The notes beneath the pieces are model-generated. The model saw only the letters and a program-made list of their open reading frames with translations. It was not told where the DNA came from and ran no database searches. Below are positions 55,273 to 63,156 of a DNA stretch of 63,321 nt, in pieces. The stretch lies in NCBI GenBank assembly GCA_014376785.1, contig JACMQW010000075.1, positions 1-63,321 of the forward strand, given 5' to 3'. The stretch is from Oligoflexia bacterium. GTDB taxonomy: Bacteria; Bdellovibrionota; UBA1018. The translations under genes were made by a program, and so were the position numbers. Numbering within the stretch: position 1 is the stretch's first letter; every line of letters starts with the position of its first letter.

Positions 55273-55493
55273 TATATCGCGCTCCGAAGCGTTGGGGTGG
55301 TGGCATTGAGGTTTGAAATAGTTTCTCGCATTCGAAGCTCCGGCGCAAATTGCATCGTCGGATTGCCGAAATGAGTTTCGTCATAATTTCGTCACCTTAA
55401 TTTGCTTAAACGCCATTTGCGTTCGGACAAAAACGAGTAGAATGGATCAGGTTCACCCAAGTGATTAGTCCTCAAACCGGGAGTTTCCATTCT

Positions 55494-57464
55494 ATGTTTC
55501 TTCGTAGGTCCGCTATTCTTCTCGCCCTAACGGCCTCGTTCTTTTCCGGGGGAGCCTCGGCGAGTAACCTCAGTTGTGCGGTTCTACCGCAACTTTTCAA
55601 TTTATATTTCCGCTTTCATTACGTGCACCGCACGATGACTGACGATATCCGAAACCATACGGTCGACCAATTTATCAAGACCATCGATCCTTCGAAGACA
55701 CTTTTGCTTCAAGCACAGGTCGATCAATCGAAGCGGAGTCTCTCTAATGTCTTCAAAACGATGGACGAAGGAAATTGCGCTGCCATTGATGAGACGAACG
55801 CGTTGCTTGTGAAAGGCGCGGAAGAGAACGAAAAATTTGCTAAGGAAATCCTGGACGATAAATACACGCTAGATGAATCTGCCGAGCTCGTAACCGACCC
55901 TGAAAAGCGGAAATTTCCAAAAGACGCGGGCGAAAAAAAGGCGCTTTTGAAAAAAATGATCCAATTCCAAATCGCGAACGAAATGCTCGCGAAAACGAAA
56001 CTGCTTGAAGCAAAGAAAAACATTATTCACCGCTATGAACTCGATACCAAACGCATGCGGGAGAAGAAGAGTTCAGACCGCCAAGTGGACTTCGCGGAGA
56101 GCTTTGCGCTCGCGCTCGATCCACACTCGAGTTACATGAGTGCAGACTCGCTAGAAGAGTTCAGAATCCAAATGCAGCTTTCTCTAGAAGGCATTGGCGC
56201 CTCCCTTTCATCCCAAAACGGATTTACTCTTGTCGAAGAAGTGATCCCCGGGGGCGCAGCGGACCGCCTGAAAATATTGCAACCCAAGGATAAGATTCTC
56301 GCGGTTGCGCAAGACGGTAAAAAGCCGGAATCCGTCGTCGACATGGATCTCCAAGATGTCGTGAAACGAATTCGTGGAAAGAAAGGGACGAAAGTCACAC
56401 TTACGGTCATTCGAACGGGTGAAACGTCGAAGACGTTCGACGTTTCGATTATTCGCGATAAAATCGATATTAAAGAATCGGCAGCGAAACTTACTTACGA
56501 GACTAAAAAAGTTGGCGAGAAGAGCTATAAAATTGGGGTGATTGATTTGCCTTCTTTCTATGGTGGCGGCCGAGAGGGTCGTTCGAGTTCCGATGACATG
56601 AGGAAACTCGTCTTAGAAGCCAAAAAGAACAAAGCCGAAGGAATCGTTATCGATCTTTCTCGAAATGGTGGAGGATTATTAGACGATGCAGTGAAGATCG
56701 CCGGACTTTTCATTCAGAAAGGCGCCGTAGTGGCAACGAAGGGCGGAGATCAGCGTGTCGATGTTCTATCTGATCGCGATGACGAAGTTGCATTCAACGG
56801 ACCAGTAATGCTTCTGACGAGTCGGCTATCCGCGTCTGCATCCGAAATTCTAGCTGGAGCACTGAAAGACTATCACCGTGCGCTGATTGTAGGCGGGGAC
56901 CACACTTACGGTAAGGGAACGGTTCAAGTTGTTTCCGATCTTCCGCAGGGACTAGGAGCGATGAAAGTTTCGACTGGGATGTTCTTTGTCCCTGGAGGCG
57001 CCTCTACCCAGCACCAAGGAGTGGAAAGCGATATCGAACTGCCTTCGATTTTCTCTACCGATGATATCGGCGAAAAGACGATGGACTATTCATTACCGCC
57101 GCAAAAAATTCCTACCTTTGTGGGAACCGACGCAAATACCGAAGAAGCTTCCAAGCACTGGAAGCCAGTGGACTCCGATCTTGTGAAAAAATTGAAAAAA
57201 CTTTCTCAAGAACGCGTCTCGAAAGATGCGAAATTTACTGAAATTGCGAAAAATATTGAAGACGCCAAGAAGAATAAGGGCGTCATTCGGTTGTCAGAAA
57301 TGAAGAAGAAAGCGGAAGAAGAAAATAAGAAGGACGAGAAAAAAGATAAATCGCGTAAAGCAAAGCTGAAGGAGACCCAAGCTCCGTTAGTGAGTGAAGG
57401 CGTGAACATCATGACGGACTGGCTGTCTTCGGGCGCCGGTATGGGGACGATGGGCGCACGTTAA
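55494..57464 (+). CDS. prc: C-terminal processing protease Prc/Tsp
   Basis: This S41 periplasmic protease trims or degrades proteins and in E. coli controls peptidoglycan hydrolases. The 656 residues have a signal peptide (AILLALTASFFSGGASAS), the N-terminal Tsp helical domain (YVHRTMTDDIRNHTVDQFIKT), a PDZ domain (about residues 220-310, with GIGASLSSQNGFTLVEEVIPGG), the protease core with the Ser nucleophile in SRLSASASEILAGALKDY and the Lys base in HTYGKGTVQ, and a charged Lys-rich C-terminal region. I used ATG 55494, with GGGAG upstream. No partner NlpI-like gene is next to it. Confidence 0.94.
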   Translation: MFLRRSAILLALTASFFSGGASASNLSCAVLPQLFNLYFRFHYVHRTMTDDIRNHTVDQFIKTIDPSKTLLLQAQVDQSKRSLSNVFKTMDEGNCAAIDETNALLVKGAEENEKFAKEILDDKYTLDESAELVTDPEKRKFPKDAGEKKALLKKMIQFQIANEMLAKTKLLEAKKNIIHRYELDTKRMREKKSSDRQVDFAESFALALDPHSSYMSADSLEEFRIQMQLSLEGIGASLSSQNGFTLVEEVIPGGAADRLKILQPKDKILAVAQDGKKPESVVDMDLQDVVKRIRGKKGTKVTLTVIRTGETSKTFDVSIIRDKIDIKESAAKLTYETKKVGEKSYKIGVIDLPSFYGGGREGRSSSDDMRKLVLEAKKNKAEGIVIDLSRNGGGLLDDAVKIAGLFIQKGAVVATKGGDQRVDVLSDRDDEVAFNGPVMLLTSRLSASASEILAGALKDYHRALIVGGDHTYGKGTVQVVSDLPQGLGAMKVSTGMFFVPGGASTQHQGVESDIELPSIFSTDDIGEKTMDYSLPPQKIPTFVGTDANTEEASKHWKPVDSDLVKKLKKLSQERVSKDAKFTEIAKNIEDAKKNKGVIRLSEMKKKAEEENKKDEKKDKSRKAKLKETQAPLVSEGVNIMTDWLSSGAGMGTMGAR

Positions 57465-60379: not shown

Positions 60380-62623
60380 TTAGTTTATTCCTAGGTCTGA
60401 ACAGGTTTTCACAAGAAACTTCTGCGGAACCGCATCTCCATCATCATCAAAACCCAAATTATTCGAAGCGGATCCTAAAATTAAGCACGCGTCTTTGCGC
60501 GCCTGGGGAGAACTTTCAAGCGTCGAACGAATAAGCGGCAATTTGATGGCCTCGTAAAAAGCCTGGAGCTGTTCATCGGTTGCAATATTCACGAATCGAT
60601 ACTGGGAGAAAAGCTTTTCTAAAAAAGAACTTCCGACATCGGAATTTTGAGCGAGGTAGAGAAAACCAATCAGAACTCTGGCTGTCTGAAGAATGTTCGG
60701 CTTTCCTTTGAGGGCTTTTAGAAAGTTCTCTAATTCAGAAGGAGAGAGATGCATGTTGCGAAGAGAGTAGACCATTTCATCAGGTCTTCTTTCGGGTCCA
60801 TGATTTGCTAGGTCTGAAAGTAAGAGTTTCTGATTTTCAATTTTTTGAATGGGTTTGAAAAAGAAGTAACGTTCCAGACCATTGGGTAACTCGTTTTTTG
60901 GATCACGGTAGATGTTCAGTAAAACATCCTCAAGTTCTTGGCTTCCGACGGTGAGAAATCGTAATGCATCCGCAGTCAAGGCAGTCGACCATTGGGAAAC
61001 CGCTTTAAATCGCTGTGCAAGTAAATGCGCAGTTCCTTCATCAGTACTCCCGAGGCGAGCTAGCGCTTGATCACAAGACAGTTGATTCGAGCTATTCATC
61101 GACAATTTACAAAGTGCGGTGAGTCGCTTTAAAAGTTCTAGATCTATCGTCGTAGGATGAAGAGTGGGGGTGGATTCAGAAAAAATTGTAGCAAGCACGA
61201 TGGCGTTATTGACCGTATTCTCTGGATGACTTCGAAAAAAATCGGCAAGTTTTTCCCGAAACTCAGGATAACGGGCTATTCCTATACACCGGAGCGCATT
61301 TGCGATCGACTCATTTGCAAAGTGGAAATTCCGAATTCTTCCGACCACGTCAGAGAAGTTGAGTTCGTTCACTCCATGAGCACCTATTGAGCAGAGAGAA
61401 TCGGCCGTATTCACGGTCATGGAGTCTGCAGCAAATGCTGAAGCGACTCGTTCATGTATTGAATGCACCAGTTCTTCTCTGGAAATCCATCCCATCGTCT
61501 GTGCGAAACGCATCCATTCGAGTCTAGTTTCTGACATCTTCACGCTTTCAATCGCGTCCATGATCGTTTTACGCGCGTTCGAACTCTCTGAAAGCCGTGA
61601 GAAAAGAGAAGCATAATCGCGGTGAATGATTCGCGCGTTTTGCTTTAAGAAATTCTGAATGGATGGCAAGAGCATCAGGAGTTGGTCTCCTCTAAACATC
61701 TTTTCCGCTAGCGCGAGTCTATCGGCCATTGGTTTTTTCCGGTCGAAGAGGGAGCAGATGTCGAGGTGAACGCTGTAATTGGGGTCGCTTGGATCCAGAC
61801 CGCGGCATTGGATGAAGTCTTCACTCTGAATTGAAACTTTTAAAATCTGATTCGGCTTTGAAATCGCATTCGTTTTCTCAGAAACAATTTGGTCGAAGTG
61901 CGCGGTGTAGTCACCTATTTTACTCAAGTAGTCGCGAATCCTTGGACCCTGGACATTTCCCTTCTGACTGGTGGAGGAAAACCCATACAAGTAGGGAATG
62001 CCGATGAATGCCCGCTCCATTTTACTTTTGTTCCATTGACCGAAAACTCCGTAACGGTCTTCACTCACTCTTCGCGCGTCTTCGGGTGTGTAGCCATCCT
62101 GAACAAGGACATCATAGTATTGTTGCTGAGTCCGGTGGTCGCCGTCACGAGTAGCGAGGGTGTTGCAACCGAGTAGATAGACTTCGCGCGGGTGCCGAAG
62201 GATTCCTGAGCAATCCTCCGCACAGCTGTGGTTTTCTAGATCATCAAGGGTAAGCCGGAAGCCGCTCGAGCCGAAAAATTCACCCGCGAAATGTCCAGAG
62301 ATGACATTAATGTCGCACTGGATATTTTTCCGGCAAGCGTCGTCAAACCAAAGAGTCTGATCACCCGAAGAGTCTAGGCCGGTTAGTTCTACAAGGTCCC
62401 AATCTCTAGGATTTAGAGCGGTGATGAACGCCTCTTTTTCGTCGCTGGAATTAATGGTGGTGAAACAAGCAGTGCGTTTTTCTGCATTTTTTATAAAGAT
62501 AGATGCTGGTATGGGGGAGCGGCTCGGATAGGAAGGTTTCGATTTCGCGAAAGCAGCGCCCGTTACCAACGAGGAATAGGAGGCTAGAAGAAGTCCGAGT
62601 TTGAAAATTTCTTTCGCCATCAT
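60380..62623 (-). CDS. Secreted protein, possible caspase-type fold, 747 residues
   Basis: A signal peptide (FKLGLLLASYSSLVTGAAFA) is followed by a domain with CDINVISGHFAGEFFG and, 40 residues on, REVYLLGCNTLATRDG. A His after a hydrophobic strand (His111) and a Cys after the next (Cys153) is the pattern of clan CD cysteine peptidases (caspase, CHAT, gingipain-like). The rest (from about residue 260) is helical with repeat-like pairs, similar to HEAT-like repeats. No known family fits fully, so protease activity is an inference. Its ATG overlaps the lipoprotein gene upstream (ATGA), so the two work as one unit. Confidence 0.7.
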   Translation of the reverse strand: MMAKEIFKLGLLLASYSSLVTGAAFAKSKPSYPSRSPIPASIFIKNAEKRTACFTTINSSDEKEAFITALNPRDWDLVELTGLDSSGDQTLWFDDACRKNIQCDINVISGHFAGEFFGSSGFRLTLDDLENHSCAEDCSGILRHPREVYLLGCNTLATRDGDHRTQQQYYDVLVQDGYTPEDARRVSEDRYGVFGQWNKSKMERAFIGIPYLYGFSSTSQKGNVQGPRIRDYLSKIGDYTAHFDQIVSEKTNAISKPNQILKVSIQSEDFIQCRGLDPSDPNYSVHLDICSLFDRKKPMADRLALAEKMFRGDQLLMLLPSIQNFLKQNARIIHRDYASLFSRLSESSNARKTIMDAIESVKMSETRLEWMRFAQTMGWISREELVHSIHERVASAFAADSMTVNTADSLCSIGAHGVNELNFSDVVGRIRNFHFANESIANALRCIGIARYPEFREKLADFFRSHPENTVNNAIVLATIFSESTPTLHPTTIDLELLKRLTALCKLSMNSSNQLSCDQALARLGSTDEGTAHLLAQRFKAVSQWSTALTADALRFLTVGSQELEDVLLNIYRDPKNELPNGLERYFFFKPIQKIENQKLLLSDLANHGPERRPDEMVYSLRNMHLSPSELENFLKALKGKPNILQTARVLIGFLYLAQNSDVGSSFLEKLFSQYRFVNIATDEQLQAFYEAIKLPLIRSTLESSPQARKDACLILGSASNNLGFDDDGDAVPQKFLVKTCSDLGIN

Positions 62624-63156
62624 AAATTCGCACCATTTCCAGTTTGAAAGCTGGTTTTAAATTTAAAGACGGGTTTGTCTTTTTTTAATAGGACGCAACT
62701 CATATTTATCCATTCGATGGTCGAGACCTCGGGATCGAGAGGGCCTGCAGATCCACCGGTAGAGATGCGGTAAGTAAGGGAGCAGTTGAGAGAGTAATGC
62801 TGATCTTCGGGCGCATTTTCTAAATGCGCGGGGAGTGAGATTTTCGCTTTCGGATGGCGTGCCCCTAGTTTGGAAAATTGCGATAGGTCGACTCTATACT
62901 GGCCGAGAGGTTTTTTATCTTCGTCAGTTAAGAAGAGCCGGGCTGTTCCAAATCGGTTGCGATTCAAGTTCGTATCGATTAGCTCGATACTCAGTTTTGA
63001 TTCAGATGGTTTAAAAAACGCTTCTCCGGAAATCGATGCCGATTCATCGGGAATAAAAACGGGGATCGATGAAATGAGATTTCTATTACCGCAGCCTGCG
63101 ACCATGAGTATCGCGACCAGCGCCGGTGTCATTTTGAAGGAAGAAGTATTTTTCAT
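62620..63156 (-). CDS. Lipoprotein of unknown function paired with the caspase-like gene
   Basis: The 178 residues begin with a lipoprotein signal and a good lipobox (LVAILMVAGC), so the mature protein is lipid-anchored at Cys22. The rest is beta-rich (GEAFFKPSESKLSIELIDTN, QYRVDLSQFSKLGA) and contains a few late cysteines (LNCSLTYR, MSCVLL). No family is recognised. It overlaps the next gene by four bases, which points to a joint function with the caspase-like protein, perhaps as its outer membrane partner or anchor. Confidence 0.8.
   Translation of the reverse strand: MKNTSSFKMTPALVAILMVAGCGNRNLISSIPVFIPDESASISGEAFFKPSESKLSIELIDTNLNRNRFGTARLFLTDEDKKPLGQYRVDLSQFSKLGARHPKAKISLPAHLENAPEDQHYSLNCSLTYRISTGGSAGPLDPEVSTIEWINMSCVLLKKDKPVFKFKTSFQTGNGANL

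Follow-up and report, generated by a model that had tools for sequence, protein, structure and literature searches.

The 747-residue protein P0001 of an Oligoflexia bacterium is probably a cysteine endopeptidase with a caspase fold (clan CD) that is exported, most likely to the periplasm, as judged from its sequence and its predicted structure, and it belongs to a family undescribed in the libraries searched. Its gene lies on the minus strand of the analyzed window, i.e., the whole stretch of 63,321 nt, with the following features:

60380..62623, minus strand: coding sequence of P0001, putative secreted caspase-like/HEAT protein, 747 aa (ORF list, homologues)
62546..62623, minus strand: signal peptide of P0001, residues 1-26, with an AFA cleavage site and without a lipobox (read from the sequence)
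61916..62476, minus strand: predicted caspase-like (clan CD) alpha/beta domain of P0001, residues ~50-236 (AlphaFold2, structure matches, alignment)
62291..62293, minus strand: codon of His111, the presumed catalytic base, located two residues past beta-3 (AlphaFold2 model and conservation)
62165..62167, minus strand: codon of Cys153, the presumed nucleophile, located two residues past beta-4 (AlphaFold2 model and conservation)
60458..61777, minus strand: predicted all-helical HEAT/ARM-type solenoid of P0001, residues ~283-722 (AlphaFold2, ARM/HEAT structure matches, Pfam HEAT matches in homologues)
62620..63156, minus strand: coding sequence of P0002, orphan lipoprotein, 178 aa, lipobox LMVAGC with Cys22 (ORF list, homologue searches)
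62620..62623, minus strand: ATGA shared by the P0001 and P0002 genes, 4 bases (ORF coordinates)

The main sequence features named in a preliminary description of this locus were all found in place. The N-terminus of P0001 (MMAKEIFKLGLLLASYSSLVTGAAFA, cleaved before KS) was judged by eye to be a signal peptide of the Sec type, with AFA as the cleavage site, the segments VISGHF and YLLGC contain His111 and Cys153, respectively, and the four-base overlap with the lipoprotein gene is the ATGA at 62620-62623, the product of that gene having the lipobox LMVAGC. The source genome contains one copy of P0001. Approximately 3 kb away, the plus strand of the window (55461-57464) encodes an ordinary tail-specific protease of the Prc/CtpA type (Peptidase_S41 with PDZ).

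Predicted fold, putative catalytic dyad, and HEAT arm

The caspase fold proposed earlier was borne out by structure prediction, as AlphaFold2 gave confident models of the domain (residues 40-262; pLDDT 90.8, pTM 0.87) and of mature P0001 (pLDDT 88, pTM 0.81), the former with a clan CD alpha/beta topology. In clan CD, the dyad residues are located at the ends of beta-3 and beta-4 (PMC4357240). The same placement is seen in the secondary structure of the model, where His and Cys each lie two residues past a strand (strand 66-70 followed by H72, and strand 108-112 followed by C114, in domain-model numbering); the predicted succession of strands and helices, with His behind the third strand and Cys behind the fourth, agrees with the published clan CD description (PMC4357240).

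Clan CD structures were also the first to be matched. The top ten VIA-align rows for the domain model are all of the clan CD type (Z 7.5-10.3), although, according to the program's own note, a top score of Z 7-8 may be background. The best row is SAVED-CHAT (8tl0; Z 10.3, 145 aligned residues, 3.1 Å), followed by legumain and asparaginyl endopeptidases (Z 7.5-8.1, the asparaginyl ligases being at 7.5) and Tce1 (9qpe, Z 7.9), a putative cysteine protease for which an alignment of His and Cys with a known clan CD dyad has been published (PMC13323088). SAVED-CHAT again ranked first for the full model, with Z 11.6 over model residues 20-249. Foldseek placed caspases in the top ranks for the domain model, but weakly (best E 0.0025, none below 0.001, TM ~0.3). 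Taken over both programs, the match to solved enzymes is above background and moderate.

The preliminary description had also named conservation of His111 and Cys153 as a check, and the pair is kept in 125/127 retrieved homologue segments that cover both columns. In the domain alignment of 77 sequences, Cys153 and the Gly directly before it are invariant (77/77), and His111 is present in 76 sequences. The residue directly before His is Gly (G110) in 74/77 sequences and Ala in the other 3, as is characteristic of clan CD enzymes, in which Gly precedes the catalytic His (PMC12445089). The homologue motifs can be written as (V/I)SGH(F/Y) and FGCNTL, with a His-Cys spacing of 42 in 39 and 47 in 28 of the 77 aligned sequences; the residue following His is Phe or Tyr instead of the usual Gly, a point against the peptidase reading. 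Other invariant or nearly invariant positions are C53, N58, S59, E62, E79, C97, C103, D104, S109, C138, F206, and G214. The additional cysteines suggest a disulfide-bonded fold that would fit the periplasm or the outside of the cell.

Exceptions to the dyad are few. Both residues are lost in a 244-aa member (L041:4416-5150, genome G026), which carries NTELGG and VGNNTLD instead and constitutes a natural pseudo-protease, and Glu replaces the catalytic His in a paralogue (L110:5746-8253) that has an intact copy (L097) in the same genome (MEQL01).

The C-terminal part, previously described as long, helical, and repeat-like, is all-helical in the AlphaFold2 model, and its repeats are of the HEAT type. 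ARM/HEAT proteins match this part in the structure search with the full model; since helical repeats reach high Z easily, more weight is given to Pfam, where HEAT_2 is matched by 13/35 homologues (best E 2e-54). HEAT models thus match homologues, and P0001 itself is assigned through its structure model alone.

Two other readings of the protein, both unlikely and to a similar degree, were weighed against this evidence. The domain could have a Rossmann-like sheet (deoxyribosyltransferase, TIR, or flavodoxin-like) and be a hydrolase or transferase of another kind, with His and Cys used for different chemistry or for binding metal. Flavodoxin, receiver, and TIR rows do occur in the structure lists for the domain, the viral structure library yielded weak Rossmann-like matches only, and the conserved cysteines of the domain are numerous. 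However, the Rossmann-like rows, including flavodoxin and receiver folds, score lower than the leading clan CD rows (Z at most 7.0 vs. 7.5-10.3 in VIA-align), and His after beta-3, Cys after beta-4, and Gly before His together form the clan CD pattern. Alternatively, the caspase-like domain and the HEAT arm might form a pseudo-protease scaffold that binds partners without cutting them, as Raptor does in mTORC1. Raptor has the same domain order, caspase-like then HEAT, and Arabidopsis Raptor (5wbi) is among the lower-ranking Foldseek matches of the full model. A protein serving only as a scaffold would not have to keep both dyad residues, though, and the near-complete conservation of the pair argues against this reading; the one copy lacking both is the short 244-aa protein, which looks exceptional. 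The clan CD peptidase thus remains the preferred reading of P0001.

An unnamed family and its gene neighborhood

P0001 belongs to a caspase-like family without a name, apparently one of active cysteine proteases, that occurs in Bdellovibrionota and, as a single clade, in some Betaproteobacteria. Homologues were identified in 19/97 relatives by protein search, and matches in 114/369 genomes of the phylum by profile search, some of the latter touching the helical part only. A pattern scan of one genome per species (84,980 species) resulted in 113 confirmed relatives, and the best 80 loci among them were retained. The best 80 of 113 include Bdellovibrio (among them B. bacteriovorus kdesi, L113), Pseudobdellovibrio, Bacteriovorax, Halobacteriovorax, and other Bdellovibrionota, two MAGs labelled Deltaproteobacteria, and Betaproteobacteria such as Ramlibacter, Piscinibacter, Rubrivivax, and Aquabacterium, among others. 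The betaproteobacterial rows of the domain tree fall into one fully supported clade, and P0001 clusters with SZAS-2 (L098) and another MAG (L101). The homologues of several Betaproteobacteria are tandem copies, an arrangement often seen in this group (L117, L119, L121, L129, L142, L147, and others). One homologue (L038:3181-5990, genome G037) is split into two ORFs separated by 41 bases, an N-terminal one of 153 aa that contains the dyad and a C-terminal one of 768 aa, and may be a broken copy.

The family is regarded as unnamed because in sequence and profile searches its catalytic domain had no match among the models of Pfam, NCBIfam, and PADLOC or among PDB sequences. Neither P0001 nor 21 domain sequences matched the C14 model PF00656 or the CHAT model PF12770; hhalign against ten C14 proteins of the same phylum gave a probability of 0.2%, i.e., no profile similarity. 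CHAT proteins had no match in 114 genomes of the phylum, and for DUF4347 (PF14252) the domain was unmatched and nothing exceeded the cut-off in 59 genomes. The motif of C11 clostripains, His-Gly-(X)n-Ala-Cys (PMC12445089), is replaced in the family by His-Phe/Tyr and Gly-Cys. Peptidases are grouped in MEROPS by structure and function rather than by sequence similarity (PMC12445089), and a sequence-divergent member of clan CD is therefore expected to look like P0001, which fits the clan by fold, dyad order, and Gly-His, and by sequence belongs to none of the named families that were tested. In the literature on Bdellovibrio with caspase or clan CD, no account of the family was found. The architecture had been called unfamiliar in the preliminary description; it is indeed absent from Pfam, NCBIfam, and PADLOC, but it is not unique to the window, as the family comprises more than 100 proteins.

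The same description had assigned P0001 a lipoprotein of its own, and this partnership did not hold for the family. No homologue of P0002 was found in the other 368 genomes of the phylum, including two of the same genus that contain P0001 homologues. In SZAS-2 (G001), the gene upstream of the homologue encodes a different protein of 1180 aa, with RCC1-like repeats as judged by eye. By a crude rule, upstream genes with a lipobox were found at only 4/80 loci (best 80 of 113), three of them being tandem copies of the family gene itself. No fixed neighbor was found beside the homologues, whose adjoining genes are unrelated, and genomic context therefore gives no function. P0002 is thus a local neighbor, neither a conserved partner nor an essential subunit of the family, and its coupling to P0001 is local, since it is absent from the 368 genomes and no lipoprotein gene recurs. 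The four-base overlap and the lipobox in the source genome could be taken to indicate a two-component device, P0002 being the anchor or the inhibitor of the protease; given that P0002 is missing even from same-genus genomes with P0001 homologues, and that the genes upstream of the homologues are unrelated to it, we consider such a device very improbable. The shared ATGA is likely to provide translational coupling in the source genome only. In a subgroup with the motifs SGHH and GCRTL, a small gene for a secreted protein of 109-110 aa is located directly upstream in two genomes (L042:4167-4496 and L040:2468-2800) and may be a real partner.

Proposed function and comparison with known systems

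According to the proposed mechanism, P0001 would be exported by Sec, as its signal peptide implies, and could be stabilized in the periplasm or outside the cell by disulfides between the extra cysteines. Cleavage would then start with attack of Cys153 on the peptide bond, His111 acting as the base, roles suggested by the fold and the conservation of both residues. The HEAT solenoid may serve as an arm for binding a substrate or a regulator, so that only specific proteins are cleaved, and P0002 is perhaps co-translated with P0001 in the source genome. Of the caspase-like reading first given to this locus, the predicted fold and the dyad stood and the lipoprotein partnership fell, and catalytic activity is, as before, inferred.

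Any substrate of P0001 and any role in predation are likewise presumptive. The family is frequent in predatory lineages, yet it also occurs in Betaproteobacteria that are not known to be obligate predators; a general role in the envelope is therefore at least as likely as one in predation. Tentatively, and with chances that we put slightly below even, we propose a new clan CD peptidase family in which an exported caspase domain with a HEAT arm serves Bdellovibrionota as a substrate-selective protease in the periplasm or the prey compartment, was shared with Betaproteobacteria by a single event, and represents a bacterial secreted parallel to separase/Raptor and TPR-CHAT. If this is true, the family, which is conserved across Bdellovibrio-type bacteria, would provide a candidate for an enzyme that acts in the cell envelope or in predation.

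Among known systems, the best structural match for both the domain and the full model is SAVED-CHAT, and TPR-CHAT combines a caspase fold with a helical-repeat arm, as does P0001. CHAT effectors of the SAVED and TPR kinds are cytoplasmic defense proteins, whereas P0001 is predicted to be exported, has HEAT in place of TPR or SAVED, and lacks a PF12770 match. Legumain and the asparaginyl endopeptidases (C13), which are exported enzymes, resemble P0001 in fold, without a sequence match and without a HEAT arm. The C11 clostripains are likewise secreted bacterial enzymes of clan CD with a fold match (6n9j, Z 6.9), and P0001 departs from them by its His-Phe/Tyr...Gly-Cys pattern and its HEAT arm. 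Bacterial orthocaspases and metacaspases (C14) share the caspase fold and the His-Cys dyad, but neither the Pfam C14 model nor profile-profile comparison with C14 proteins of the same phylum links them to P0001. Raptor and separase unite a caspase-like domain and a helical solenoid in one chain, as in P0001; unlike it, both are eukaryotic and intracellular, Raptor is devoid of catalysis, and the protease domain of separase is at the C-terminal end. Separase and TPR-CHAT are known intracellular examples of caspase-fold proteases with repeat arms, and the exported caspase-HEAT version would, if the proposal is true, add to them a peptidase family unseen by Pfam and NCBIfam.
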